Made by a program: the position numbers and the translations under genes
The notes under the pieces: model-generated
The model's database searches: none
What the model saw: only the letters and a program-made list of their open reading frames with translations
Told to the model about the DNA's origin: nothing
Assembly (NCBI GenBank): GCA_030606215.1
Contig: JAUWGW010000021.1
Coordinates: forward strand, 1 to 29,687
DNA length: 29,687 bases
Direction of reading: 5' to 3'
Origin: a bacterium
Lineage (GTDB): Bacteria; NPL-UPA2; JAUVJM01
Shown: one piece after another, positions 2,928 to 25,105 of the stretch
How positions within the stretch are numbered: the stretch's first letter is position 1
Layout of the letters: each line of letters begins with the position of its first letter

Positions 2928-2963
2928 ATAGAGCCAGCCTGACTGTCAAACCAACCTTGCTCC

Positions 2964-3093
2964 GTAAGTACTTGGTGAAAGCCGTCATTCCTGCGGAAGC
3001 AGGAATCTAAAATCTAAACCCGTCCTCACGAAAGTGGGGATGGATTCCCGCTTGCGCGGGAATGACAGGAAACGGACTTTACTGAATATTTAC
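2964..3093. mobile_element. MITE-like element, copy 1 (130 bp)
   Basis: Non-coding palindromic insertion between the glycosyltransferase and fmt. The ends form imperfect terminal inverted repeats of about 22 bp (left gtaagtacttggtgaaa, right end reverse-complemented gtaaatattcagtaaag). Inside are a second pair of inverted arms beginning gtcattcc (2984-3007 and 3043-3066) and a central small hairpin (cctcacgaaagtgggg). The direct repeat cttgctcc flanks the element at 2956-2963 and 3094-3101, which reads as an 8-bp target site duplication. The element carries no ORF, so it would need a transposase in trans. The stacked hairpins could also end transcription of the upstream cluster. Confidence 0.8.
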
Positions 3094-3151
3094 CTTGCTC
3101 CTCTCTTCTAAATGGCTTGACCTCGTGCATAGTCGTGGTATTATTAGTGAA

Positions 3152-4084
3152 ATGGGTAAATTGAGATTGGTTTTTATGGGAACGCCGGTTTTTGCCGTGC
3201 CTTCGCTGGAGGCAGCAGTCAGGGATGGGGATGTAGTGGCGGTAATCACTCAGCCTGACCGCGCAAGTGGCAGGAAACGGCGGATAACTTCGCCTCCTGT
3301 GAAAACATTTGCGGTTGAAAGGGATGTAGAAATCTATCAGCCTAAGGACATCTCAGACTACCGGGTTATAAAGAAGATAAAAGAATTGAAGCCGGATTTG
3401 ATAGTGGTTGTTGCGTATGGAGCAATTTTAAAACGCCCATTACTTGAACTGCCCTCTCTTGGCTGCATCAACATTCATCCATCTTTACTTCCACATTATA
3501 GAGGTCCCTGCCCGATTGAATGGGCAATAATGAGGGGAGAGGCAGTGACGGGTGTTACCTGCATATATATGAATGAGGAGATGGATACCGGGGATATTAT
3601 TATTCAGCAAAAGCTCAGCATTTCCATTTCTGATACAAAAGCTGCACTGAGTGAGAAGTTATCAAGACTTGGTGCAGGACTTCTGTCGGAAGTCCTTGCC
3701 CGGTTTAAAGAAGGCAAGGTGAAAGCGTATCCACAAGAAGGTGAGGTGAGTTACGCTCCTTTCATCAAAAAAGATGATTGCAGGATAGATTGGGAAAAGT
3801 CAGCTCTTGACATTTACAATCTTGTGCGAGCGCTGAGTCCTCATCCTGGAGCTCGCACCTGTGTTGACGGAAGAAAACTCATTATATGGGAAACTGCACT
3901 TCCGCCGCAGGTAGAAGAAGTTTCTGAAGTGCCTGGGAAAATTCTTAGAGTTTCTTCGGAGGGGATAGTTGTGGCTGCGGGGAGCGGGGCTCTTCTTCTC
4001 GGGGTTGTTCAGCTTGAAGGTGGGAGAAGACAGACGGCTGCTGAGTATATCCGTGGACATCATGTACAAAAGTTTAGCCAATAA
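3152..4084 (+). CDS. fmt: Methionyl-tRNA formyltransferase
   Basis: Formylates initiator Met-tRNA using 10-formyl-tetrahydrofolate. From the ATG at 3152 the protein has 310 residues, like E. coli Fmt. Visible are the N-terminal LRLVFMGTPVFAVPSLEA, TQPDRASGRKRR near residue 40, and the formyl-THF catalytic segment with INIHPSLLPHYRGPCPIEWA and MDTGDII; the C-terminal domain begins about residue 205. An open frame runs upstream to a TTG at 3095, but that stretch sits directly against the MITE and adds 19 residues foreign to the family, so I prefer the ATG although its Shine-Dalgarno is weak. The usual partner def (peptide deformylase) is not in the window. Confidence 0.96.
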   Translation: MGKLRLVFMGTPVFAVPSLEAAVRDGDVVAVITQPDRASGRKRRITSPPVKTFAVERDVEIYQPKDISDYRVIKKIKELKPDLIVVVAYGAILKRPLLELPSLGCINIHPSLLPHYRGPCPIEWAIMRGEAVTGVTCIYMNEEMDTGDIIIQQKLSISISDTKAALSEKLSRLGAGLLSEVLARFKEGKVKAYPQEGEVSYAPFIKKDDCRIDWEKSALDIYNLVRALSPHPGARTCVDGRKLIIWETALPPQVEEVSEVPGKILRVSSEGIVVAAGSGALLLGVVQLEGGRRQTAAEYIRGHHVQKFSQ

Positions 4085-4091
4085 TTTGGAG

Positions 4092-4120
4092 TTGCATGTT
4101 TGAATTATTTATGGTATTTT
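4092..4120 (+). promoter_or_regulatory. Candidate promoter with extended -10
   Basis: TTGCAT (4092-4097) and TATTTT (4115-4120) lie 17 bp apart, and a TG dinucleotide at 4112-4113 gives an extended -10. The predicted start would fall at about 4127, immediately before the palindrome at 4130-4153. It would serve the coiled-coil genes and ftsA. Based on motif matching only. Confidence 0.35.
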
Positions 4121-4129
4121 TAGTATCGC

Positions 4130-4153
4130 CTAAGGGCTTACGTAAGCCCTAAG
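4130..4153. promoter_or_regulatory. Palindrome between promoter and coiled-coil gene
   Basis: A near-perfect inverted repeat whose 18-bp core agggcttacgtaagccct is fully symmetric, extended outward to 24 bp with one mismatched pair. It has no T-tract after it, so it is not a standard terminator, and it lies at the expected transcription start of the following gene. It could be an operator or a 5' mRNA hairpin. The Shine-Dalgarno aaggtggtga of the next gene follows within a few bases. Confidence 0.5.
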
Positions 4154-4172
4154 TGAAAGGTGGTGATGAAAA

Positions 4173-4769
4173 ATGCCGGAAGGTCGTAGGAAGCGTATAA
4201 TACGGGATTCACCTGAGTTGGACCCCGAGCAGGGTTTTGAAATTCGCCTGAAACGGGCAGGAGACCAATTGAGAATCCTCAGGGAGCAGGAAGAGCAGTT
4301 AGACCGGGAGAGAAGAGAACTGGAAGGATTGAAAGCGCAAACTGAGGAGCTTGAAGCAGATAAGAGGGAAATAAATGCAAAACTTGCCAGCGCTGTGGCG
4401 ATTCTAACAGAGGAAGAAGAGGAGACAAAGAAAAGACAGCAGGAGATTATAGATACCAGGAAAGAATTTGAGACACTTATTAAAGAGATGCGCTTTGCGG
4501 AGAAACAAGGTCAGAAAGCAGAAGATATACTCAGAAAAATAGTTATTGAGAGGGAGGTTGTGGGGAAGGCAAGAGAAGCGTTTCAGAGAGCGAGGAAAAA
4601 GCTTGATGTGTTTGGGGAAAGGGAAATAGGGGAGGAACAGGAGGAGTTAGAGTATACACGGGAAGCTTTTGGTCTGGTTGAAGGGTTTAAGGTCGGGCTT
4701 GGATTCTTTCTGGCTGGAGCTCTTCTGAGCACAATTGTGTACATACTGTTTCTGATATTCAGGCAGTGA
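4173..4769 (+). CDS. Tail-anchored coiled-coil protein, unknown function
   Basis: I do not recognise a family. The 198-residue protein is extremely rich in Glu, Arg, Lys and Gln with heptad-like spacing from about residue 20 to 150, which predicts a long coiled coil. Residues about 173-196 form one hydrophobic membrane segment (GLGFFLAGALLSTIVYILF) followed by only a few residues, so the protein is probably a C-tail-anchored membrane protein with its coiled coil in the cytoplasm. Translation starts at an ATG with the strong Shine-Dalgarno aaggtggtga. The next coiled-coil gene follows after 10 bp and then ftsA, so a structural or envelope/division role is possible, but this is inferred from neighbours only. 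Confidence 0.8.
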   Translation: MPEGRRKRIIRDSPELDPEQGFEIRLKRAGDQLRILREQEEQLDRERRELEGLKAQTEELEADKREINAKLASAVAILTEEEEETKKRQQEIIDTRKEFETLIKEMRFAEKQGQKAEDILRKIVIEREVVGKAREAFQRARKKLDVFGEREIGEEQEELEYTREAFGLVEGFKVGLGFFLAGALLSTIVYILFLIFRQ

Positions 4770-4779
4770 GGAACAAAAA

Positions 4780-5196
4780 ATGGTGGAAGAGAAGATAAAG
4801 AGGGAGTGGGGAGTGCGGTTAGAGGAACTTGATGTCAAACAGCATGAACTGAGGAATAGGGCAAACGAGCTTGAAGATGAAGTTGAAAGGTTGGAGGGAG
4901 AACTGGCTCAGCACAGAATAAAGAGGTATAGGACAGAGCTTGCAGACAAATTAAGGAGGTGTTTTTCTCGCACCTTTCGCGAAAGAGATGCTCTCATTGA
5001 ACCGAGGTTTGGTTCAATGCAAGAATGGAATGTCTGCAGCAGGAGATTGAAAGCTTATATTATCCTCCGTAACGGTCTTAATACTGAAGAAGCAGGTGCC
5101 TGCAGGGATGTTTCTGAACTTAGAGGCTGTCTTCGTGCTAAACTCAATTTAGAGTTAGAAGGTAATATTGAAGAAGAAATATTAGATCTGTTGTGA
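4780..5196 (+). CDS. Small coiled-coil protein, unknown function
   Basis: Not recognised. The 138-residue protein starts with a charged coiled coil (about residues 5-60, VKQHELRNRANELEDEVERL region) and continues with a compact, Cys-containing part (four Cys between about residues 63 and 116) that lacks a known metal-binding spacing. No signal peptide or membrane segment is visible. The ATG is preceded by gaggaa. It lies 10 bp after the tail-anchored coiled-coil gene and its stop is 11 bp before the ftsA ATG, so the three genes are very probably one transcript. A partner role with the upstream coiled-coil protein or FtsA is plausible but unproven. Confidence 0.75.
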   Translation: MVEEKIKREWGVRLEELDVKQHELRNRANELEDEVERLEGELAQHRIKRYRTELADKLRRCFSRTFRERDALIEPRFGSMQEWNVCSRRLKAYIILRNGLNTEEAGACRDVSELRGCLRAKLNLELEGNIEEEILDLL

Positions 5197-5207
5197 AGGA
5201 GAGAGAT

Positions 5208-6425
5208 ATGGCTGAGTCTGATATTATTGCATCTCTGGATATAGGAGCAGCAAAAATTTGCTCCGCTATTGGCAGAATAGATGAAAGAAAACGGATTAAT
5301 ATTATCGGTTTAGGTTGCAGCCCTCCTCTTGGGTTGGAAAATGGTATTGTTGCTGATGTAGAGCTTCTTACCGGGTCTATTGAAAAAGCTGTGATGGAAG
5401 CAGAGGAAATTGCAGGTGTTGAAGTAGAATCTGTTTTCACAGGTATAGCCCAGAGTAATCTGCGCGGTGTTAACAGCCGCGGGGTTGTTTCTATCCCCGG
5501 AGCGAATAGGGAAATCAACAGTAGAGACGTAAACCGTGTTATTGAAGTGGCAAAGGTTGTTGCAATGCGTTCCATGCAGGAATCTGTTCAGGAACTGGTT
5601 CAGGAATTTATTGTAGATGGGCAGCATGGTATCAAAAATCCGGTTGGTATGTATGGTTTCAAACTTGAAGCGGAGGTCTATATTGCAACCGGGAAACCCT
5701 CCACTTTTCTAAAGACGGTCATTGAATGCATAAAGAATGCGGGGTTCAGGGTAGAGGAGATGATTCTGGAACCATTAGCCGCAGGAGAAGCTGTTATCAC
5801 TCCGTCAGAAAAAAAGATTGGAGTGCTGTTAGTAGATTTGGGTAGTGAAACAACGTGTATTGCAATTTTTGAAAGGGGTAACCTGACCCGGGCAAGAGTA
5901 TTGGCAGTGGGAGTTGACAAGATTACAAGCGATATTATAGGAAGATTCCATCTGTCCGAACCTGCAGCCGAGAAAATAAAAAGAGATTATAGATGTGCTG
6001 CTTCGGCAGCTGCGGCGGATAAGAAAATAGATTTGCCTGGAGATGAGGAAACCGTAATTTCCCAGAGGGAACTCTCAGAAGTTGTCCAGCGCAGAATGGG
6101 GGAAATACTCAGTCTGGTCAAACGGGAAGCTGAATCTGCCAGGTTCCCAATGGGTATGGGTGAATCGGTAGTACTGACGGGAGGTGGAGCATTGTTAGAG
6201 GGTGTTACTGAACTCGCCGCTCGGAAGTTCAATCTACCTGTTAGAGTTGGTAAACCCGATGGGAGAGTTGACCAGTGGGGCAGGGTAATCAGTAATCCTG
6301 CTTACAGTACAGTAATTGGATTGCTCCACAGTGGTATGAAAACCCGCCAGCTGGCGGAGATGTCAAGCATAGGCTGGCAAAATCCCTTTATCAAGATTAA
6401 AAGCTGGTTCAGAGAGTTCTTTTGA
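5208..6425 (+). CDS. ftsA: Cell division protein FtsA
   Basis: Actin-like ATPase that tethers FtsZ to the inner face of the cytoplasmic membrane. From the ATG at 5208, which has the Shine-Dalgarno aaggag at 5197-5202, the protein has 405 residues. Seen are phosphate-1 (IASLDIGAAKICSAIG), phosphate-2 (VLLVDLGSETTCIAIF) and adenosine (VVLTGGGALLEGV) motifs, and a 1C/SHS2 region around residues 80-160. The last 15 residues, PFIKIKSWFREFF, form the amphipathic membrane-targeting helix expected at an FtsA C-terminus. An upstream in-frame GTG at 5193 is less likely. Unusually, ftsZ and ftsQ are not adjacent: coiled-coil genes precede it and topA follows with a 1-base TGATG overlap. Confidence 0.93.
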   Translation: MAESDIIASLDIGAAKICSAIGRIDERKRINIIGLGCSPPLGLENGIVADVELLTGSIEKAVMEAEEIAGVEVESVFTGIAQSNLRGVNSRGVVSIPGANREINSRDVNRVIEVAKVVAMRSMQESVQELVQEFIVDGQHGIKNPVGMYGFKLEAEVYIATGKPSTFLKTVIECIKNAGFRVEEMILEPLAAGEAVITPSEKKIGVLLVDLGSETTCIAIFERGNLTRARVLAVGVDKITSDIIGRFHLSEPAAEKIKRDYRCAASAAAADKKIDLPGDEETVISQRELSEVVQRRMGEILSLVKREAESARFPMGMGESVVLTGGGALLEGVTELAARKFNLPVRVGKPDGRVDQWGRVISNPAYSTVIGLLHSGMKTRQLAEMSSIGWQNPFIKIKSWFREFF

Positions 6426-8539
6426 TGGATTTGGTAATTGTAGAATCTCCTGCCAAGGCAAGAACAATAGGTAAATTCTTGGGGAAGAATTTTTGTGTTG
6501 AAGCGTGCATGGGGCATGTAAGGGACTTGCCTAAGAAAAGACTTGGCGTGGATAGAGCACATAATTTTAAACCTACATATGTTGCAGTTCCGGGGCGCGG
6601 CAAGGTAATCAAAATGTTGAAGCAGAAATCTGAGAAGATGGGAAAAGTCTATCTTGGAGCTGATCATGATAGGGAAGGAGAAGCAATTTGCTGGCATCTG
6701 AAAGAGATGCTTGGGAAAGAAAATGGTCTCTACAGGATAATTTTTAATGAAATAACACCCCGTTCGATTCAGGAGGCAGTTAAGAATCCCTCACCAATAG
6801 ATTTACGCAAAGTCAATGCGCAGCAGGCAAGGAGAATTCTTGACCGTCTGGTTGGATATATGGTGAGCCCTCTCCTCTGGAGGAAAGTCAGGAAAGGGTT
6901 GAGTGCAGGGAGAGTCCAGTCTGTTGCCCTTCGCCTCATTTGTGAGCGTGAGGACGAAATCAAATCTTTCACGCCTGAGGAATACTGGTCAATAACCGCT
7001 GAACTTGAAAAGCAAAATGGACAGAAGTTCAGCGCGAAACTTGAAAAGATTGGAAAAGTTAAAGCAAGAATTCCCGAGCTGGAAAAAGCGCAGTCAATTG
7101 TAGAGGCGTTAAGAGAAAAAAAGTTTATTGTAAAAAGTGTTAAAGATACGGAGGAACAAAAAAACCCACCACCTCCGTTTATCACAAGTTCTCTTCAGCA
7201 GGAAGCTTCTAACCTGCTTGGTTTCAGAGCCAGAAGAACAATGCGGGTTGCTCAACAACTCTATGAAGGATTGGACATAGGAGAGGAAGGTAGAACAGGG
7301 CTCATTACATATATGAGGACTGATTCTGTCCGGGTCTCAAAAGAAGCACAAAAGATGGGCTTAAAGTTTATACGCGAGAAGTTTGGGGCTGAGTTCGCTT
7401 TGCAGAGGCCACGAGATTACAGAAGTAGAAAGGGCGCTCAGGAAGCGCACGAAGCTATAAGGCCGACAGAGGCTGGGAGAGAACCGGATAAGCTTAAGAA
7501 TTTCCTGACTGCTGAGCAGCTTAAATTATATGAGCTTATCTGGCGTAGATTCTTAGCAAGTCAATGTAAGTCTGCATGTTTCAAAAGAACATCTGTGAGA
7601 ATAACTGCGGGTAAATTTGAGTTTTCCGCTAATGGTTCTAAGATTCTTTTCCGCGGGTTTATGGTTGTATATTCTAAAGGCCGCCTGTCAGGCAGGCAGG
7701 GGGCAGATGAGAAGCAGGTAGAATTACCCCATTTGGAAGAGAGAGAGGTTCTAAACCTGGTGAAGCTGCTCCCTGGACAGCATTGGACAAAACCTCCCCC
7801 GCGCTATTCTGAAGGGACTCTTGTGAAAGCACTTGAGGAAAAAGGAGTAGGCCGTCCCAGCACATATGCACCAATAATAAGCACAATTCAGGAAAGGGGC
7901 TATGTTGAAAGGAAAGATAGACGACTTTTCGCGGCAGAACTCGGGATGATGGTTAATGGGCTCCTTGTAAAAAATCTTGGAGACTACTTTGATGTCAAAT
8001 TCACAGCTGAGATGGAAAGTGATTTAGATAAGATTGAGGAAGGGGAGGTTGACTGGATTCAGGTAGTGGAGAATTTTTATCAGCCTTTTGAAAACTCTGT
8101 TGAGAAAGCAAAGCAGAATATGGAGAATTTGAAACAAAAGTTAGTGGAAGAGACTGACGAGATATGTAATAAATGCGGCGGGATGATGGTGATACGGTAT
8201 GGCAGATATGGCAGGTTTATTGCCTGTAGTAATTTCCCAAAATGCAGGAACACTCGCCACATTATTGTAGAAACAGGTGTGAATTGTTCTGTGCCTGGTT
8301 GCAATGGTAAGATTATTGAAAGGAGAACAAAGCGCGGGAGGGTCTTTTATGGGTGCAGTAAATATCCTGATTGTAAGTTTGTCAGCTGGTATAAACCTGT
8401 GCCTTTAAAGTGCGAGAAGTGCGGAGCAAGTTTCCTTGTTGAGAAAAGGACAAAATCGGGACAAATCCTGAAGTGTATTCAAGCTGAATGTGATTATGAA
8501 AGAATATATTCGGAAATTCATCACTTATCTGAAAGCTGA
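6425..8539 (+). CDS. topA: DNA topoisomerase I (type IA)
   Basis: Relaxes negatively supercoiled DNA by single-strand passage. The 704-residue protein has the TOPRIM domain (MDLVIVESPAKARTIGKFL; acidic motif GADHDREGEA), the NAQQARRILDRLVGY and GLSAGRVQSVAL segments, the active-site Tyr296 in GLITYMRTDS, EAHEAIRPT, and PPRYSEGTLVKALEEKGVGR. Three C-terminal zinc-ribbon units are visible (CNKCGG...CSNFPKC, CSVPGC...CSKYPDC, CEKCG...CIQAEC). The start ATG overlaps the ftsA stop by one base (TGATG). A palindromic GC-rich stretch at 7683-7693 encodes a low-similarity loop before QVELPHLEERE and may be a small inserted repeat. The topA-xerC-hslVU order matches topA-codV-clpQY in Bacillus. Confidence 0.97.
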   Translation: MDLVIVESPAKARTIGKFLGKNFCVEACMGHVRDLPKKRLGVDRAHNFKPTYVAVPGRGKVIKMLKQKSEKMGKVYLGADHDREGEAICWHLKEMLGKENGLYRIIFNEITPRSIQEAVKNPSPIDLRKVNAQQARRILDRLVGYMVSPLLWRKVRKGLSAGRVQSVALRLICEREDEIKSFTPEEYWSITAELEKQNGQKFSAKLEKIGKVKARIPELEKAQSIVEALREKKFIVKSVKDTEEQKNPPPPFITSSLQQEASNLLGFRARRTMRVAQQLYEGLDIGEEGRTGLITYMRTDSVRVSKEAQKMGLKFIREKFGAEFALQRPRDYRSRKGAQEAHEAIRPTEAGREPDKLKNFLTAEQLKLYELIWRRFLASQCKSACFKRTSVRITAGKFEFSANGSKILFRGFMVVYSKGRLSGRQGADEKQVELPHLEEREVLNLVKLLPGQHWTKPPPRYSEGTLVKALEEKGVGRPSTYAPIISTIQERGYVERKDRRLFAAELGMMVNGLLVKNLGDYFDVKFTAEMESDLDKIEEGEVDWIQVVENFYQPFENSVEKAKQNMENLKQKLVEETDEICNKCGGMMVIRYGRYGRFIACSNFPKCRNTRHIIVETGVNCSVPGCNGKIIERRTKRGRVFYGCSKYPDCKFVSWYKPVPLKCEKCGASFLVEKRTKSGQILKCIQAECDYERIYSEIHHLSES
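7683..7697. repeat. Short GC palindrome inside topA
   Basis: The stretch gcctgtcaggcaggc contains the symmetric 11-mer gcctgtcaggc followed by a further aggc. It is more GC-rich than its surroundings and falls in a loop of TopA that is variable among homologues (translated GRLSGRQGA), leaving the frame open. It could be a small dispersed palindromic repeat tolerated within the coding sequence. There is no second copy in this window, so repeat status is not shown. Confidence 0.3.
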
Positions 8540-9419
8540 GAGGAATTCTTCAGAACATACTATCAGGAATTATTCTTCTGACCTGAAACAGTTTGAGAAG
8601 TTTTTAAGCAGGGACAGAGCCCGTTTTTCTGATGGGAAAATGGGACCTATCCCTAATTTTTCCCGGCTTGACCTCAGACGTTTTCTGGTGCATCTTCAGA
8701 AGAAAGGGTGTGCCTCACGAACGATTGCGAGGAAAATTGCAACTATCCGCTCTTTCTTTAAGTTTCTGGTGGAGGAAGGCTACTTGAGCTCAAATCCAGC
8801 GGCGGGATTGCCAATCCCAAGACAGGAGAAAAAGCTTCCAAAATTTCTTGATGAAAAAGAAATGGTGAAATTGTTAGAGGCACCGGATGAAAGAAATGTT
8901 CTCGGGATAAGGGATAGAGCTATTCTTGAAACTCTTTACAGCACAGGTATGAGAGTAGGGGAACTTGTGAGTCTCAAATCAGGCAGTATAGATTTTATAG
9001 GAGGAGTTGTCAGAGTTTTGGGTAAAGGGAAGAAAGAAAGAATTGTTCCGATTGGTGAGAAAGCGCTGTCCGCTCTGGGGGAATATTTAGAAAAGCGGGG
9101 ACAGCTTTTAAGCAGTCCAAGGAAGGATATAAAACAGAATGGTACTGCCCTTTTCCTTGATAAGTGGGGCGGGAGACTTTCAGCGAGAAGTATTTGCCGG
9201 CTGGTGAATAAATATGTCAGAATAATTGGGGCAAAGATGGGAGTTAGCCCGCATGCTATCCGGCACAGTTTTGCAACTCATCTTTTGAATGCAGGTGCAG
9301 ATTTGAGAGCAGTTCAGGAATTGCTCGGTCATGCGAACCTTTCAACGACTCAGATTTATACGCACGTTACAACAGAAAGATTGAAATCCGTATACACAAA
9401 GGCTCATCCAAGAGCATGA
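8496..9419 (+). CDS. xerC: Tyrosine recombinase XerC/XerD-type
   Basis: Site-specific tyrosine recombinase, by context the chromosome-dimer-resolving XerC (CodV) type. The 307-residue protein has the N-terminal SAM-like core-binding domain ([19 protein letters not shown] onward) and a C-terminal catalytic domain with Arg in [14 protein letters not shown], Lys in [12 protein letters not shown], His-x-x-Arg in [14 protein letters not shown], a late His in [11 protein letters not shown], and the nucleophilic Tyr in [10 protein letters not shown]. The ATG at 8496 lies inside the end of topA, a 44-bp overlap; a GTG at 8490 is an alternative. Its position before hslVU is the classic arrangement of Firmicutes and many other phyla. 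XerC versus XerD cannot be told from sequence alone. Confidence 0.92.
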
Positions 9420-9940
9420 GGCATACTACAATTTTGTCAGTAAGGCGGGGAAGGGAAGTTTCTATTGCTGGAGATGGGCAGGTAACGCATGAGGAAACCA
9501 TTATGAAGCAAACTGCTGTCAAGGTGCGAAGGATGCACGATGGTAAAGTGCTGGCTGGTTTTTCGGGTGGTGCCTCAGATGCTCTTACCCTCTTTGAAAG
9601 GTTTGAACAGAAACTTTCTGAACATCATGGGAACCTCCCGCGAGCCGCTGTAGAACTGGCGAAAGAGTGGAGAGCAGATAAGGTTCTGAGGAGACTTCAG
9701 GCTTTGCTTGCGGTTGCCGATAAGAAACATTCGCTCCTGATATCCGGTAATGGGGATTGTATAGAGCCTGATGATGGGATAATTGCTATTGGTTCAGGTG
9801 GACCTTACGCGCTTGCTGCTGCAAGAGCTCTTTTAAAGTATTCCAACCTGAGTGTGGAGGAGATAGTCAGGGAAGCTCTGATAATCACATCAACAATATG
9901 TGTTTACACTAATGACAGAATAACAGTTGAGAAACTATAA
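9416..9940 (+). CDS. hslV: ATP-dependent protease subunit HslV (ClpQ)
   Basis: Proteolytic core of the HslVU protease, an N-terminal-nucleophile hydrolase related to proteasome beta subunits. The 174-residue protein begins [11 protein letters not shown], so removal of three residues would expose the catalytic Thr4. The motifs [52 protein letters not shown] and [17 protein letters not shown] are all typical. It starts in an ATGA overlap with the xerC stop and its own stop shares one base with the hslU start, so xerC, hslV and hslU are translationally coupled. Confidence 0.97.
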
Positions 9941-11262
9941 TGCTTACGCCTGTTGAGATTGTCAAGGAACTTGATAAGTATATTATTGGGCAGGATGAGG
10001 CGAAGAGAGCGGTTGCAATTGCTCTCAGAAACAGATACCGCCGCCAGAAACTCCCTCCCGAGCTGCGGGATGAGGTTGCTCCAAGAAATATAATCATGAT
10101 AGGTCCGACGGGTGTCGGAAAGACTGAAATCGCACGCAGGCTTGCAAGACTTGCGCAGGCTCCTTTTCTGAAAGTTGAGGCTTCAAAATTTACCGAGGTT
10201 GGATATGTAGGGAGAGATGTTGAATCAATGATTAGAGACCTTACTGACATATCTGTTAACATGTTAAAGGCAGAAAAGACTAAGGAGGTGGAGGAGAAAG
10301 GAAAAATCCTTGCTGAGGAAAGGCTCCTTGACCTTCTTCTTCCTCCCGGAGGCAAGAGTCCTGATGGGAATGAGAGGGAGCGGTTGAATGCAACGAGGGA
10401 GAAGTTGAGAAAGAAGTTACGTTCAGGAGAGATTGATAAGCGCATTGTCGAAATTGAGTTGAAGGACCGGATGTTTCCTACAGTGGAGATATTCTCAACT
10501 GCTGGGATTGAAGAGCTCGGTGTGAATTTTCAGGAGGTTTTTGGGAAAATGCTTCCTGAACGAATGAAGAGAAGAAAGGTCAGCGTAGATGAAGCACGCA
10601 GACTTTTAGCTCAGGAGGAAGTTCAGAAACTTGTTGACATGGATGAGGTTGTAAAAGAAGCAATAGAGAAGGTAGAGAATTCAGGTATAGTGTTTCTTGA
10701 TGAACTGGATAAAATTGCCGGAAGAGAAGGAGGCGCGGGTCCTGATGTATCAAGGGAGGGTGTGCAGAGGGATATTCTTCCGATAGTTGAAGGCACGCAA
10801 GTTCCCACGAGATACGGGATGGTAAGAACATACCATGTGCTTTTTATTGCCGCAGGAGCTTTCCATGTCTCAAAACCCTCAGATTTAATCCCGGAGTTGC
10901 AGGGGAGGTTTCCTATACGGGTTGAATTAAATAGTCTCTCCGCTAAAGATTTTGAGAAGATTCTACTTCAACCTCAGAATGCTCTTACAAAACAGTACGT
11001 GGCACTTCTCAGGACTGAAGGGATAAAAATTGAATTCAGGAAGGATGCAGTGAAGGAGATAGCATCTATGGCTTATGCTGTCAATCAGCAGATGGAGGAT
11101 ATTGGAGCAAGGAGATTACATACTATAATGGAGAAACTTCTTGAGGAGATTTCATTTAAAGCTCCTGATGTTCCGGAAAAAATTGTAATTGACGGGAAGT
11201 ATGTCATGAAAAAGCTGGATAAGGTGATTAAGGATGTGGATCTCAGCAGATACATTTTATAA
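9940..11262 (+). CDS. hslU: HslU ATPase (ClpY) unfoldase subunit
   Basis: AAA+ unfoldase that feeds proteins into HslV. The 440-residue protein carries the HslU N-terminus ([23 protein letters not shown] split over residues 2-24), Walker [10 protein letters not shown], the pore-region segment [14 protein letters not shown], an intermediate I-domain of about 120 charged residues (roughly 105-230), Walker [12 protein letters not shown], a sensor region [14 protein letters not shown] and sensor 2 [16 protein letters not shown]. The C-terminal DLSRYIL is the tail that docks into HslV. Start ATG overlaps the hslV stop by one base. Nothing resembling codY follows; rpsB comes 14 bp downstream. Confidence 0.97.
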
Positions 11263-11276
11263 AGGAGGAGGAACTG

Positions 11277-12044
11277 GTGAATGAGGCAACATTGAAGGAA
11301 CTGTTGGAGGCAGGTGTCCATTTCGGGCATCAGAAGAGGAAATGGAATCCCAAAATGCAGCGTTTCTTGTTTGGAGAGAGGGAAGGAATCTACATTATTG
11401 ACCTTGAGAAGACACTTGAGAAGTTGAAGGAGACATGCTCTTTCCTCAGCGAAGTTGCCGCAAACGGAGAGACTATATTGTTTGTAGGAACGAAGAGGCA
11501 GGCTCAGGAAGTGATTTCCTCAGAGGCAGAAAGGTGTGGAATGCTCTACGTAAACAGGCGGTGGCTCGGTGGAACACTCACGAATTTTAAAACTTTCCGC
11601 AAGAGCATCAAGAAGCTCAACGAGCTGATTAAGATTGAAGAGGATACGCCGAAACAACTGACCAAAAAGGAAATAACGGTATTGAGGAGGGAAAGGGAAA
11701 GACTTGAGAAAAATCTTGCGGGAGTTCGGAATATGGAAACTTTACCGGGAGCTTTGGTTGTGGTTGACTCGCACAGAGAAAAAATAGCAGTAGCTGAAGC
11801 AAATAAGATGGGGATTCCTCTTATAGCAATTGTGGATACAAATGGGGATCCTGATGTGGTGCAGTATTGTATACCTGGCAATGATGATGCAATCAGAGCG
11901 GTCAGGGTTCTGATTTCAAAACTAACAGATGCAGTTATTGAAGGGAAAAAGAAAGCAGTGCAGGTTTTTGAGGAGAAACAGGCTGCAAAAGAATCAATTG
12001 TAGAAGAGAAGGGAGAGAAAGAAGAAAATGAAAATCGCACCTGA
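11277..12044 (+). CDS. rpsB: 30S ribosomal protein S2
   Basis: Small-subunit ribosomal protein needed for S1 binding. The 255-residue protein has the S2 signature regions LLEAGVHFGHQKRKWNPKM, GIYIIDLEKTLEKL, FVGTKRQAQE, YVNRRWLGGTLTNF and IPLIAIVDTNGDPD. Translation starts at GTG 11277 after the very strong Shine-Dalgarno aaaggaggagga at 11261-11272; the ATG at 11281 is in another frame. The C-terminal 30 residues are Glu/Lys rich. Only 14 bp separate it from hslU, so there is no room for the long S2-binding autoregulatory leader known in some bacteria. The tsf start lies inside its end (17-bp overlap). Confidence 0.98.
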   Translation: MNEATLKELLEAGVHFGHQKRKWNPKMQRFLFGEREGIYIIDLEKTLEKLKETCSFLSEVAANGETILFVGTKRQAQEVISSEAERCGMLYVNRRWLGGTLTNFKTFRKSIKKLNELIKIEEDTPKQLTKKEITVLRRERERLEKNLAGVRNMETLPGALVVVDSHREKIAVAEANKMGIPLIAIVDTNGDPDVVQYCIPGNDDAIRAVRVLISKLTDAVIEGKKKAVQVFEEKQAAKESIVEEKGEKEENENRT

Positions 12045-12621
12045 CTTAGTTAAAGAATTGCGCCAGAAGACCGGAGCCGGGATTATGGATTGCAAAAAGG
12101 TTCTCCAGAACTCAGATGGTAATATGGATAAGGCTGTGAATCTTTTGCGCAAACAGGGATTTGTCAAGGCTGCAAAGAGAATTTCCAGGGAGACTTCTGA
12201 GGGGTTAGTTGCTTCTTACATTCATCCAGGGGGGAAGATTGGGGTGCTTGTTGAGATCAATTGTGAAACTGATTTTGTAGCACAAACTGCCGATTTCAAA
12301 CAGCTTGTGAAGGATATTACAATGCATGTCGCCGCAAGTGACCCGCAATGTATCCGTCGCGAGGAAATTTCACAGGAAGCAATTGAGCAGGAAAAAGAGA
12401 TTGTTAAATCAGAATTTGCTAATAAACCGGCTCAGGTGATTGAGAAGATAGCAAACGGGAGACTTGAAAAATTTTATGCCGAAAATTGTCTGTTAGAACA
12501 ACCTTTTGTGAAGGATGAGGATATAACCGTTCGCGAATATATTGCAGGCTGTGTAGCAAAACTTGGAGAGAATGTGCGAGTGAGAAGGTTTGTGCGTTTT
12601 CAGCTTGGAGAGGAAATTTGA
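12028..12621 (+). CDS. tsf: Translation elongation factor Ts, short form
   Basis: Guanine-nucleotide exchange factor for EF-Tu. The 197-residue protein is the short form, as in Thermus and several other phyla, rather than the ~280-residue E. coli form; only one core subdomain is present. Diagnostic segments are LVKELRQKTGAGIMDCKKVL, EGLVASYIHPGGKIGVLVE and NCETDFVAQ (the TDFV EF-Tu contact). It overlaps rpsB by 17 bp and its Shine-Dalgarno gggaga lies within rpsB. The stop TGA is partly supplied by the palindromic element inserted right behind it; without that element the gene would end at TAG with the same protein C-terminus, immediately followed by the pyrH ATG. Confidence 0.97.
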   Translation: MKIAPDLVKELRQKTGAGIMDCKKVLQNSDGNMDKAVNLLRKQGFVKAAKRISRETSEGLVASYIHPGGKIGVLVEINCETDFVAQTADFKQLVKDITMHVAASDPQCIRREEISQEAIEQEKEIVKSEFANKPAQVIEKIANGRLEKFYAENCLLEQPFVKDEDITVREYIAGCVAKLGENVRVRRFVRFQLGEEI

Positions 12622-12691
12622 GAAAGCCTATTTTCAAGTGTGCCTCCCCCTTGATGGGGGAGGATAGAAGGTGGGGGTGAAGAGGAAATTT
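12609..12691. repeat. Palindromic GC element at tsf/pyrH junction
   Basis: A 61-bp insertion (12620-12680) is bounded by the direct repeat agaggaaattt at 12609-12619 and 12681-12691, which looks like an 11-bp target duplication. Its core is the hairpin cctcccccttgatggggga gg (12643-12663) followed by a G-rich tail gtgggggtga. A similar core and tail are seen at 14048-14100. The right-hand copy of the direct repeat now provides the Shine-Dalgarno of pyrH. The strong hairpin may also affect transcription or mRNA stability between tsf and pyrH. Confidence 0.65.
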
Positions 12692-12693
12692 AG

Positions 12694-13413
12694 ATGAAAA
12701 AGAAGCCGGTTTTTAATCGTGTATTGCTCAAACTGGGCGGGGAATCCCTGCAAGGTAGGAGTGGCTATGGGATTGACCCGGCTAAGGCGAGACATGTAGC
12801 AGAGCAGGTTAAAGAGGTGTGGGAGCTTGGCGTAGAGATAGCAATTGTTATCGGGGGCGGGAATATTTTCCGTGGGGAGTCTTTGAGCAAGGAAGGGTTG
12901 GATAGGTCAACAGCCGATTACATGGGGATGCTCGCCACTGTTATCAACGGTCTGGCTCTTCAGAACGCTCTTGAGAAAGTGGGAGTTGTGACAAGAGTAC
13001 AGACTGCAATACATATGCCTGCATTGGCTGAACCTTATATTCGGCGGGTAGCGATGAGGCATCTTGAAAGGAAAAGGGTTGTTATCTTCGCCGCCGGCAC
13101 CGGCAATCCCTATTTCACCACGGATACTGCGGCCGCGCTAAGAGCGATTGAGGTTTCTGCAGAAGTTATTCTGAAGGCGACCAAGGTTGATGGAATTTAT
13201 AGCAGCGATCCAATAGTTGAGAAAAAAGCGAAAAAGTTTATCAGGCTTGAGCATATGGATGTTATAAAGAAAAAGTTGGGCGTCATGGATAGCACCGCTA
13301 TATCTCTATGTATGGATAATAATCTGCCAATAATAGTCTTTAATCTTGGGAGAAGAGGGAATATTCGCAGAGTGGTTCTCGGAGAAAAAATCGGGACACT
13401 TGTTAAAACTTAG
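12694..13413 (+). CDS. pyrH: Uridylate kinase (UMP kinase)
   Basis: Phosphorylates UMP to UDP in pyrimidine nucleotide synthesis; a hexameric amino-acid-kinase-fold enzyme. The 239-residue protein shows [78 protein letters not shown] and a C-terminal [14 protein letters not shown]. The ATG follows gaggaa, which belongs to the direct repeat at the right edge of the inserted palindromic element. Its place between tsf and frr is the standard bacterial order. Confidence 0.98.
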
Positions 13414-13415
13414 AA

Positions 13416-13431
13416 TGGACGCAAAAGTCCA
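13416..13431 (+). other. Small hairpin between pyrH and frr
   Basis: The sequence tggacgcaaaagtcca can fold into a 5-bp stem with a six-base loop just after the pyrH stop. There is no following T-run, so it is not a confident terminator; it may be an mRNA 3'-end or processing hairpin. frr follows 36 bp later with its own strong Shine-Dalgarno. Confidence 0.3.
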
Positions 13432-13467
13432 GCATAAATAGTTGCAGGCTAATAGGAGGGTAAGCAA

Positions 13468-14025
13468 GTGGATAAAGAAATTTTAGAGGAGATGGAAGAG
13501 AAGATGAAGAAGCGTTTTGAAGGTGGCAAGCGGGAAATGGCTCTGGTTCGTACCGGGCGGGCTTCGCCGGCGCTTGTTGAGAACATAAAGGTTGACTCCT
13601 ATGGCACGCTGACTCCTCTGAATCAACTGGCGAGCATTTCTGCCCCTGAACCACAGCTTGTTGTTATCCAGCCGTGGGATAAATCAATTATAGCCGATAT
13701 AGAAAAAGCTATCCTGAGATCAGAGCTTGATTTGAACCCTGTAGTGGCAGGTAATGTTATACGGATTCCATTCCCCAAGCTCAGTGAAGAGAGAAGGAAA
13801 GAACTTGTTAAGGTAATACACAAGATAGCAGAAGAATGCAGAGTTTCAATAAGAAGTTTGAGACGCGAAGCGAGGGAGGAATTGAAATCTCGTGAAAAAG
13901 ACGGGAAAATTTCCGAAGATGACAGCCGAAGAGCTCAGGAGAAAACGCAGGAGGTAACAGATCGGTATATTGAAGAAGTGGATAGAGCTCTTGCAGCCAA
14001 AGAAAAAGAAACGCTGGAAATATAA
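13468..14025 (+). CDS. frr: Ribosome recycling factor
   Basis: Releases 70S ribosomes from mRNA after termination together with EF-G. The 185-residue protein is full length. Visible segments are ALVRTGRASPALVENIKVDS, GTLTPLNQLASISAPEPQ, VIQPWDKSIIADIEKAI, RIPFPKLSEERRKEL and SIRSLRREAREELK, which make up the hinge and three-helix bundle. Translation starts at a GTG with the strong Shine-Dalgarno aggaggg at 13454-13460. Following uppS is separated from it by about 205 bp of inserted repeats. Confidence 0.98.
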   Translation: MDKEILEEMEEKMKKRFEGGKREMALVRTGRASPALVENIKVDSYGTLTPLNQLASISAPEPQLVVIQPWDKSIIADIEKAILRSELDLNPVVAGNVIRIPFPKLSEERRKELVKVIHKIAEECRVSIRSLRREAREELKSREKDGKISEDDSRRAQEKTQEVTDRYIEEVDRALAAKEKETLEI

Positions 14026-14047
14026 CCGTAATTAAGGATTAAGTATG

Positions 14048-14100
14048 CCCCCCTCCTTAATCCTCCCCCTCGAGGGGGGAGGAGTGGTGGGGGTGAAAAG
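14048..14100. repeat. Palindromic GC element, second copy
   Basis: The stretch contains tcctccccctcgagggggga and ends ggtgggggtgaaaag, closely matching the hairpin core and tail of the element at 12620-12680. It is cut at its right edge by the MITE copy that begins at 14101, whose target duplication gtgaaaag is made from this element's tail. An imperfect 12-bp direct repeat (ggattaagtatg at 14036-14047, gggttaggtatg at 14222-14233, 10 of 12 identical) may be the target duplication of the outer element. Confidence 0.6.
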
Positions 14101-14214
14101 GTAAAAGCTCAGTGAACTCCGTGTCATTCTGAGGAGCTCTGCGACGAAGAATCTATAGAGATTCTTCACTCCGTTCAGAATGACAGATTGGGACGCAGTT
14201 CGCTGAATATTTAC
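14101..14214. mobile_element. MITE-like element, copy 2 (114 bp)
   Basis: Terminal inverted repeats of 22 bp match at 17 positions (left gtaaaagctcagtgaact, right end reverse-complemented gtaaatattcagcgaact). A second inner pair, gtcattctga and tcagaatgac, is perfect, and at the centre gaagaatct / agattcttc forms a 9-bp stem. The direct repeat gtgaaaag stands at 14093-14100 and 14215-14222, a perfect 8-bp target duplication. The ends and the gtcattc inner arms are shared with the element at 2964-3093, although the centres differ. There is no coding capacity. Confidence 0.85.
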
Positions 14215-14230
14215 GTGAAAAGGGTTAGGT

Positions 14231-20527: not shown

Positions 20528-20551
20528 GGGGGAAGGGGAGTGGCTAAGAAT

Positions 20552-21862
20552 ATGAATAAGAACCTATGTTCATGTATAGGGATAGTGTCTATTGCAACAA
20601 TTCTTTTAGCAGTCTCCGGCTGTACAACAAGAAAAAGAGAAAGTGGAAGAGGAATACAAATATCTATAGCCTGTACCTACAGTCCCACGGATACAGGAGT
20701 GCAGGCAATAGATAAATCCATAGACAAGTTTATGGTTGAACATCCTGACATATTTGTAAAGAAGATATGGTTCACGCGGGATTATCAGACCAAACTTATG
20801 ACAATGATAGCCGGGGGGACTGCTCCAGATATATTCAGAACTTCACCCGATATGGTTCCAACCTATATTTCAAGAAAAATACTTATGCCTCTTGATGATT
20901 TTATTAAGAAAAGTTCAGAACTGAAGCTGGAAGATTTCTTTCCACAAGTATTACATAAGTACAGGTTTGATGGAGAGACTATCGGTAAAGGTCCTGTTTA
21001 TGGATTTGGAACGGATTGGTCTCTTGACCAGACTCTTTTCTTTAATAAGGATATGTTTGATAAAGAAGGAATCCCTTATCCTACAAAAAGCCTTAGCTGG
21101 GAAGAATTCAGAGATATAGCAAAGAAACTGACTCATCGTGAAGATAGAAAGAAACAGTTTGGATGTCTAATAGGATATATCCCTTTATTAGTATATCAGA
21201 ATGGAGGTAGGGTATTTTCTGAGGATGGCAAGAGATGTCTATTAGATTCACCTGAAGCAATAGAGGCGTTCAAATTCCTGGTAGATTTAAGGATAAAAGA
21301 TGAAGTTATGCCATCTTATACTGAACTGCGGGATACTAACCAGCTTCAGTTATTCCAGACAGGGAGACTTGGGATGTTTTTGTCCGGAAGATACTATGTG
21401 CCTATAGTTAGTAGTGTAGTAAAACATTTCAAATGGGGTGTAGCGCCAGGATTACATAAGAAGAAAAGGGTGAATGTGTGTGTTGGTCCCTACGGTTGGG
21501 TGATGAGTAAGACTGTCAGGCATCCTGATGCAGCATGGAAACTGATGGAATGGCTCGTAGTTGGGGATTGCGAAAAGGAGTTGGCAAGGATGGGATACAA
21601 TATCCCTGTAATAAAGAAGATAGCTTATTCAGACTTATTTTTGACCAATCCGAATCATCCTGAAGGATTTAATAAGATATTCATGGATGAGGTGGAATAT
21701 ACTGTTCCGAGTCCATTAACTCCTTATGCTCCGACTGATAGATGGAAAAGAATCATAGGTGAAGAATTAGAGCTTGCATATTTAGAGGAACAAACTGCAG
21801 AAGAAGCTGCAGTGAAGGCATGTAAGAGGATAAATGAGTTGATTGCAGAAATTGAAAGATAA
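20552..21862 (+). CDS. ABC sugar-binding lipoprotein (family 1 SBP)
   Basis: Extracellular solute-binding protein of the maltose/multiple-sugar class. From the ATG at 20552 it has 436 residues with a lipoprotein signal peptide: basic start, hydrophobic stretch and lipobox AVSGC, giving a lipid-anchored Cys near residue 28. Typical SBP features follow: MIAGGTAPDIFRTSPDMVPTY near residue 90, YGFGTDWSLDQTLFFNKDMF near 150, NGGRVFSEDGKRCLLDSPEA, FQTGRLGMFLSGRY, and PDAAWKLMEWLV. An in-frame GTG at 20540 is an alternative start but sits almost on the ggaagggg Shine-Dalgarno. No permease or ATPase gene follows, which is unusual. It is paralogous to the truncated SBP at 24.6 kb and to the C-terminal part of the regulator at 27.2 kb. 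Confidence 0.92.
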   Translation: MNKNLCSCIGIVSIATILLAVSGCTTRKRESGRGIQISIACTYSPTDTGVQAIDKSIDKFMVEHPDIFVKKIWFTRDYQTKLMTMIAGGTAPDIFRTSPDMVPTYISRKILMPLDDFIKKSSELKLEDFFPQVLHKYRFDGETIGKGPVYGFGTDWSLDQTLFFNKDMFDKEGIPYPTKSLSWEEFRDIAKKLTHREDRKKQFGCLIGYIPLLVYQNGGRVFSEDGKRCLLDSPEAIEAFKFLVDLRIKDEVMPSYTELRDTNQLQLFQTGRLGMFLSGRYYVPIVSSVVKHFKWGVAPGLHKKKRVNVCVGPYGWVMSKTVRHPDAAWKLMEWLVVGDCEKELARMGYNIPVIKKIAYSDLFLTNPNHPEGFNKIFMDEVEYTVPSPLTPYAPTDRWKRIIGEELELAYLEEQTAEEAAVKACKRINELIAEIER

Positions 21863-23301: not shown

Positions 23302-24611
23302 AAATAGGTGCATCGAAAGTTGACATAACCCCGCCGGTGGGAGTGGATTTGGCTGGCTATGCGGCAAGGGAGAAAGGGTCTTCAGGTATCGCAGATAATC
23401 TCTATTCAAAGACCTTGGTCTTGGATGATGGGAAAGAAAAAATAGCCATAGTTACTAATGACCTTATTGGTTTGGGAGAGAAAACAGTAAATAGAATTCG
23501 TAAGATTGCAGAAGAAAAAACAGGGATAAGAAGAGATAAGATAATGGTTTCCTGTTCTCATACTCATTCTGGTCCAGCCACTATCCCCTTGAAGGGATGC
23601 GGGAAGATAGATGTTGATTACTTTTCTACCTTAGAGAATACTGTTGCTGATGGAATATACTTGGCATTCCAGAAGATGGAAGAAGCATCTATTGGTGTAG
23701 GAAAGGGGAAAGTTAGAATAAATGTTAATCGTAGTGGAAAAATCCGGGAAGAGGATCTTACAATTCTTCCCAATCCAGAAGGAATAGTTGATGATGAAGT
23801 CGGAGTAGCAATCATGAAGGATAAGAATGGATTTCCAATAGCTACATGGATAAATTATGCTTGTCACCCTGTAGTATTAGGCCCTGAAAACTTGCTTATC
23901 TCTGCTGATTATCCGGGAGCAACTCAAAGGTTTATTGAGAAGAAGATGGGAGGGATGGTCTTGTTCAGTAATGGATGCTGTGGGAATTTAAACCCGATTA
24001 TTTATCCAGGTACCTTTGAAGATGTAGAAAATTTAGGAATTTCTATTGGAGAAAGAGCTTTAAGATTGGCAGGAACTATTTCCACCTCTTCAAAGGTTAA
24101 ATTCAAGATTGTTTCAAAAAGGATATCTCTCCCTGTGCAGAAACCTCCTTCCCTGGAAAGGATGGAGAGAATGGTGGAAGAGAAGAGAAAGGAATTGGAA
24201 AAGATTAGGAAGATGGAACATGATTTCTTGGAATTTAATGTTTCCCGTATTATGTTTGAATGGGCTAGGGCTAGTTTGGAAGTTCTTAAAGAAGGAAAGT
24301 TTTCAGAAAAAATAGAGATTGAAGTTTTCCTCTTGGCTTTTAATAATGCAATTCTCATAGGTATTCCAGGAGAAGTATTTGCAGAGATAGGTGTAAAAAT
24401 AAAGGAAAGCTCAGTATTCAAATATACTTTTATTCTTGGTTATACAAATGGGCTTATAGGATATATCCCCACTAAAGGGGCATTTTTAAAGGGAGGGTAC
24501 GAAGTGGAAGTAGCTCACAAATACTATGGAGCAATTTCACCTTTAAGCCCGGAAGCAGAAAGAGTTTTGATAGATGAAGTGTTAAGGTTGATGAAGGAAG
24601 TGAAGTCATGA
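23298..24611 (+). CDS. Neutral/alkaline ceramidase-like hydrolase
   Basis: A 437-residue protein with the N-terminal domain of neutral/alkaline non-lysosomal ceramidases. The zinc-site motif SHTHSGP is at residues 87-93, followed by NYACHPVVLGPENLLISADYPG near residue 190 and NGCCGNLNP, all typical. The C-terminal immunoglobulin-like domain of true ceramidases is missing and no signal peptide is seen, so it is a cytoplasmic single-domain relative; such proteins are common in carbohydrate loci of Planctomycetes and Lentisphaerae and their substrates are mostly unknown. Residues about 270-320 form a charged helical insertion. It overlaps the aminotransferase upstream and the truncated SBP downstream, each by ATGA, so the three formed one operon. 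Confidence 0.85.
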   Translation: MKIGASKVDITPPVGVDLAGYAAREKGSSGIADNLYSKTLVLDDGKEKIAIVTNDLIGLGEKTVNRIRKIAEEKTGIRRDKIMVSCSHTHSGPATIPLKGCGKIDVDYFSTLENTVADGIYLAFQKMEEASIGVGKGKVRINVNRSGKIREEDLTILPNPEGIVDDEVGVAIMKDKNGFPIATWINYACHPVVLGPENLLISADYPGATQRFIEKKMGGMVLFSNGCCGNLNPIIYPGTFEDVENLGISIGERALRLAGTISTSSKVKFKIVSKRISLPVQKPPSLERMERMVEEKRKELEKIRKMEHDFLEFNVSRIMFEWARASLEVLKEGKFSEKIEIEVFLLAFNNAILIGIPGEVFAEIGVKIKESSVFKYTFILGYTNGLIGYIPTKGAFLKGGYEVEVAHKYYGAISPLSPEAERVLIDEVLRLMKEVKS

Positions 24612-25105
24612 GAAGGTTTGTTCCTTTTTTTGTTCTGATTAGTCTAGTATTCATCCATGGATGTCAGAGGAGAGCAAGTGAAGAGGCAGGTAAGGTTGTT
24701 GTATCTATTGCATGCTACTATTCTCCAACGAATGTGTTATGCCAGATTCTTGATAAATCCCTTGATAATTTTATGAGGAAGAATCCAGAGATTGTTGTGA
24801 AGAAAATCTGGCTTTCCAGGGATTATACGAATAAAATCCTGACTATGATTGCTGGGGGGACCCCTCCAGATATATTCAGGACAAGCCCTGATATGGTTAT
24901 AACCTATATCCTGAAGGGGACTTTAATGCCTTTGGATGAATTTATCGAAAAGAGTAGGGTTCTGAAAATGGAAGATTTCTTCCCGGCAGTGCTCTACAAA
25001 TACAGGTTTGATGGCAAGAATATTGGTAAAGGTCCCCTATATGGTTTTGGTACAGATTGGTCTCCTGATCAGACTCTTTTCTTGGTTCTTCTCCAAAAAG
25101 TGTAG
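24608..25105 (+). pseudogene. Truncated sugar-binding lipoprotein (5' part only)
   Basis: The first ~155 residues match the SBP at 20552-21862 well: lipoprotein signal with lipobox IHGC, then VSIACYYSPTN, MIAGGTPPDIFRTSPDMV, MEDFFPAVLYKYRFDG and YGFGTDWSPDQTLF. After this the similarity stops abruptly at about 25080 and a stop follows ten residues later, giving 165 residues instead of about 436. The two C-terminal-lobe segments needed for ligand binding are gone, so it is very likely non-functional. It starts in an ATGA overlap with the ceramidase-like gene. The missing part, and any permeases after it, were apparently removed in the event that left the dehydrogenase fragment downstream. Confidence 0.85.

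Follow-up and report, generated by a model that had tools for sequence, protein, structure and literature searches.

MITEs with IS66-type ends and palindromic cores in a bacterium of the NPL-UPA2 lineage

For the CGTC-tagged REPs, which include dRS3 of Neisseria, a 2013 paper found no associated transposase and did not settle their mode of movement (PMC3733652). In Coxiella burnetii, QMITE2 is a MITE of 150–190 bp with inverted repeats, 7–11-bp duplications, and a GTAG-type REP inside, and its shorter copies are bare REPs (PMC5896051). Because QMITE2 is already a MITE with a REP, this arrangement has a precedent. Among the IS66 elements, ISDge4 (ISBst12 group) has the end GTAACTGCTCAGCA and generated an 8-bp repeat upon observed transposition (PMC12898284), and those of Paracoccus also generate 8-bp repeats (PMC3281130). 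The literature searched, which omits most subscription papers and thus makes any novelty provisional, contained no case in which the parent family is named and REP-type cores are interchangeable from one phylum to another, and that on IS66-derived MITEs contained none of the ends described here.

The window (the whole stretch of 29,687 nucleotides that was analyzed) contains two elements with inverted GTAA…TTAC ends, copy 1 (2964–3093, 130 bp) and copy 2 (14101–14214, 114 bp). The sequence was re-read and the direct and inverted repeats were computed. The elements and coordinates given in a first-pass annotation were found to be correct to the base, as were the perfect 8-bp repeats carried on each side, CTTGCTCC for copy 1 and GTGAAAAG for copy 2 (Table 1). 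The mechanically detected direct repeats are longer, with 10 bp in copy 1 (ACCTTGCTCC, 2954–2963 and 3092–3101) and 9 bp in copy 2 (GTGAAAAGG, 14093–14101 and 14215–14223), because the terminal AC and G of the elements themselves match the flank and add two and one bases, respectively. The GTAA/TTAC ends of the family fix the boundaries, and the duplication is therefore 8 bp in both copies. Copy 1 has on one side a gene that ends at 2927 and on the other the methionyl-tRNA formyltransferase gene, and copy 2 is located between frr and uppS (gene names read from translations). Both copies fold much more stably than shuffled sequences (z = −6.5 and −5.8 for copies 1 and 2, respectively; 0 of 200 shuffles as good), and an Rfam/RNA family search of the window gave no match. 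The window contains no transposase, as the annotation had stated, and its expectation of mobilization in trans is supported by the data described below. Elsewhere in the window, a 165-aa frame (24608–25105) resembles the start of a 440-aa substrate-binding-type protein (20540–21862), as read from translations, and looks like a truncated copy of it.

Table 1. Features of the two elements and their flanks in the window
Feature	Position	Strand	Description
Left target duplication, copy 1	2956..2963		CTTGCTCC
Left terminal inverted repeat, copy 1	2964..2983	+	GTAAGTACTTGGTGAAAGCC, 3 mismatches versus family end
CGTC-type REP, copy 1	2983..3009	+	CGTC, 8-bp stem ATTCCTGC/GCAGGAAT, loop GGAA, tail CTA; definition from PMC3733652
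Second REP, inverted, copy 1	3041..3066	-	Stem ATTCCCGC/GCGGGAAT, loop GCAA, tail CCA
Right terminal inverted repeat, copy 1	3067..3093	-	GTAAATATTCAGTAAAGTCC... when reversed
Right target duplication, copy 1	3094..3101		CTTGCTCC
Left target duplication, copy 2	14093..14100		GTGAAAAG
Left terminal inverted repeat, copy 2	14101..14122	+	GTAAAAGCTCAGTGAACTCCGT
Palindromic core, copy 2	14123..14184		GTCATTCTGA...GAAGAATCT/AGATTCTTC...TCAGAATGAC
Right terminal inverted repeat, copy 2	14185..14214	-	GTAAATATTCAGCGAACTGC... when reversed
Right target duplication, copy 2	14215..14222		GTGAAAAG

The annotation had described a family of two copies, which holds for the window; the genome (G000) has many more. 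Within one mismatch of the end pattern, 26 ends were found in its assembly, and the reversed-pattern control gave 0. Within three mismatches, the numbers were 96 versus 24, indicating that some of the ends at this threshold are due to chance. Seven listed copies lie between exact 8-bp repeats (the window pair, L084, L012, L080, L029, and L091), so that the identification as MITEs with 8-bp target duplications, and the predicted recurrence of the ends with such flanks, are borne out across the genome. L084 on contig C15 is identical to copy 2 except at 1 of 114 bases, yet it lies between a different duplication (ACGCACTT), which means that the whole unit, ends and core together, has moved. When other genomes are included, an exact 8-bp flanking repeat was present in 30 of 116 end pairs, where ~0.002 would be expected; 116 is an overcount, as some pairs share an end, and overlapping and some spurious short pairs are included. 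The flank mismatches of the other pairs center on 6, as in random 8-mers, and the distribution is bimodal. In the own genome, the elements are dispersed in multiple copies without a transposase gene, and several are truncated or have one end only.

The centers of the two copies differ, as was noted in the annotation, and they are palindromic repeats of known kinds (REP dimers). The core of copy 1 has the features that define a CGTC-tagged REP dimer: a CGTC/TGTC/CCTC tag, an 8–9-bp stem beginning with AT, a loop of 4–5 bases, a CCA-like tail, and an inverted dimeric arrangement. The core of copy 2 falls outside this definition, as it begins with TGTCATTCTGA and has an imperfect stem with an inner hairpin (GAAGAATCT/AGATTCTTC); it is a different palindrome that has the GTCATTC start in common with copy 1. 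GTAG-type repeats are found between these ends in G003 and in Aerophobetes MAGs, and in one relative they form REP dimers; some of the ends enclose CTCGACAAGCTCGA palindromes in G001, and other palindromes are enclosed in a Planctomycetota MAG. The elements are modular: the same ends surround different palindromic repeats in different genomes, and what lies between the ends can be exchanged and is in many cases a REP dimer. In the own genome, an outward GTAA end was found at 20–38 bp on at least one side in 15 of the 25 listed core pairs, and ends in the wrong orientation were not found (0; 100 of 133 arms listed).

The cores occur elsewhere too, since the other 10 of the 25 listed pairs lack a GTAA end and many G001 cores have other surroundings. 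This would suit a reading in which it is the palindromic REP-dimer cores that move, with the GTAA ends being sequence that by chance surrounds favored landing sites. A partial Y1 transposase gene between GTAG-type repeats in G003 (L135, contig C1, 1280–1838), an arrangement as in published REPtrons, points the same way. However, it is the GTAA/TTAC ends, not the cores, that the 8-bp duplications adjoin; the 114-bp unit of ends and core is present at two sites with one difference; and across many phyla the ends are found around unrelated cores. Moreover, a Y1 (RAYT) transposase, which would move a REPIN, is present in G003, but none was detected in the own genome. We therefore regard self-moving cores as very unlikely.

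Several other surroundings of the GTCATTC cores were observed. A second type of flank, CCYGSATTATTCA..., is found at L169 and L170 (own C11) and at L187, L190, and L191 (G001), and in some of these copies the flanking bases resemble a 4-bp CTAT/CTAG-like duplication. Two further recurrent flanks (CTGGTAATTTCC... and a third type) are found at L188, L193, L195, and L197 (G001), and at L182 (own C15) and L186 (G001). L194 (G001, contig C36, about 280–400) appears to be a chimera, with a CCTGCATTATTCA flank on the left of the core and a GTAA-type end on the right, and its mixed flanks suggest recombination between cores.

A transposase gene lying between the same ends, for which the annotation had proposed a search, exists outside the own assembly. 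In a Lentisphaerae MAG, L325 is a complete IS66-family element of 2313 bp with the ends GTACGTATTCAGTGAAG/GTAAATATTCAGTAAAC and the 8-bp duplication GTGAATCT, and it encodes a 579-aa transposase (PF03050, E = 3e-49) and a DUF6788 protein. In Desulfallas (L316), an end that matches at 22 of 22 positions adjoins a broken IS66 transposase gene and a DruA-domain gene; a second transposon, IS630-like, looks to have been inserted there. The L316 transposase has its nearest counterpart in L325, and both are further from either IS66 gene of the own genome. In another genome (G055), independent IS66 elements carry GTAACYATTCAGGG at their ends and lie between exact 8-bp duplications. On the basis of the L325 and L316 ends, the G055 ends and duplications, and the published features of IS66, the MITEs, with their GTAA-starting terminal inverted repeats and 8-bp target duplications, are assigned to this family.

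Here, we propose that copies 1 and 2 are in all probability IS66-family MITEs moved in trans, with the cores as passive cargo. Their terminal inverted repeats (GTAARTATTCRGYGAACYVYRT) are those of an IS66-family subgroup. An IS66 transposase supplied in trans would recognize the paired ends and insert the unit, duplicating 8 bp of the target. What lies between the ends, namely the CGTC-type REP dimer of copy 1 and the GTCATTCTGA palindrome of copy 2, would be carried passively. Cores were most likely gained or exchanged through recombination among the numerous palindromes or template switching from one to another.

The source of the transposase is probably now lost or unassembled. The own assembly (93% complete, 34 contigs) has two IS66 genes, a copy on C8 with GTAACCCCTCAGTTAC ends and a remnant on C22, and neither is close to L325 or of its subgroup. 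Downstream of the C22 remnant (L032, 1648–2546), at a distance of 131 bp, is a perfect 16-base MITE end; the remnant was rejected as the source, since this end is oriented opposite to that expected and no partner was found. G001, G003, G007, and G008 have the ends and gave no IS66 match. Ten long reading frames beside ends in other genomes that were compared with Pfam included no transposases (one had no match). L325 is the only complete element with matching ends that was found among these assemblies, which are drafts often broken at such repeats. A cognate transposase in the same genome is helpful and not required, as MITEs can outlive their source. The absence of a matching IS66 from the own and nearest genomes would also be expected if a non-IS66 transposase that likewise makes 8-bp duplications moved the MITEs. 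This alternative seems highly improbable to us, because these ends accompany IS66 transposase genes in two distant lineages (L325 and L316), and because a GTAA end together with an 8-bp repeat is a feature of IS66, both in the elements measured here and in those described (PMC3281130, PMC12898284).

The ends are widespread. Relatives in the phylum have 33 (G001), 11 (G003), 4 (G008), and 2 (G007), with 0 in the control. An exact scan of named genomes gave at least 116 stretches with the ends. As many as 208 ends were counted in a single genome (control, 0). The matches listed include Planctomycetota, Omnitrophota, Aerophobetes, Cloacimonadota, Lentisphaerae, Verrucomicrobia, Desulfobacterales, Bacillota, and others; these names were taken from record titles and are indicative only, as MAG titles can mislabel contigs. 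Five end matches were found in viral contigs, with no partner end. At L364, one element lies within another (2340–2593 and 2399–2528), each with an exact 8-bp repeat (GTCTTTGT and CTCTTTTT). The annotation could not have shown the assignment to IS66, which is new here, nor the many copies, the spread over many phyla, or the nature of the centers.

Comparison with orthologous sites, also proposed in the annotation, was made at the frr–uppS gap. UppS was found in 14 genomes, with frr adjacent in seven and an frr fragment in an eighth. The copy 2 element is absent from the stretches upstream of uppS that could be read in the relatives. In G001, the closest relative (73% amino acid identity), the gap is filled with unrelated sequence; a different inverted-repeat sequence, ACTTTTGGAATTTTT...AAAAAATCCAAAAGT (L368), is observed where the window has copy 2. 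Since a base-by-base alignment of the gap in the relatives is not possible, the comparison establishes the absence of the element rather than a precise empty site. The annotation had named two findings that would speak against a MITE, the same sequence in relatives without any empty-site allele and ends that do not recur in the genome; the ends do recur, and the gap lacks the element wherever it is readable. The idea that selection keeps the ends for regulation, protein binding, or hairpins in transcripts, which the solo ends near gene starts in several places (L007, L011, and L030) and the strong folding might suggest, is hardly credible, because it is already refuted by the duplication statistic and also conflicts with the absence from the orthologous gap, the occurrence in both orientations, the lack of an Rfam match, and the same ends on a complete IS66 element.

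The assignment to IS66 identifies which transposon family underlies a MITE family found across phyla, and the ends can be used as a probe to find such elements in draft genomes. The data suggest, but do not prove, that IS66 ends disperse REPs without their own transposase. It is conceivable, though rather doubtful, that IS66-type ends are a general means of carriage, with IS66 transposase dispersing several unrelated REP families that the same ends enclose in different genomes. If true, such carriage would be a route by which REPs lacking their own transposase, such as the CGTC REPs, spread. For the movement of CGTC REPs, a question open since the 2013 report (PMC3733652), it offers a concrete and testable route in at least one bacterial group.

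The elements in the window share GTAA-type ends with a TCAG motif and an 8-bp target duplication with the ISBst12 group of IS66 (ISDge4, PMC12898284), whereas they are only 114–130 bp long, contain no gene, and have palindromic cores. Copy 1 resembles the CGTC-tagged REPs (PMC3733652) in its CGTC/TGTC-type tag, 8-bp stem starting with AT, 4-base loop, CTA/CCA tail, and inverted dimer, but its dimer sits inside transposon ends with target duplications. As in QMITE2, a MITE encloses a REP; in contrast to QMITE2, for which a named parent transposon was not seen (PMC5896051), the parent family is identified here, and the same ends carry different families of palindromes from genome to genome.
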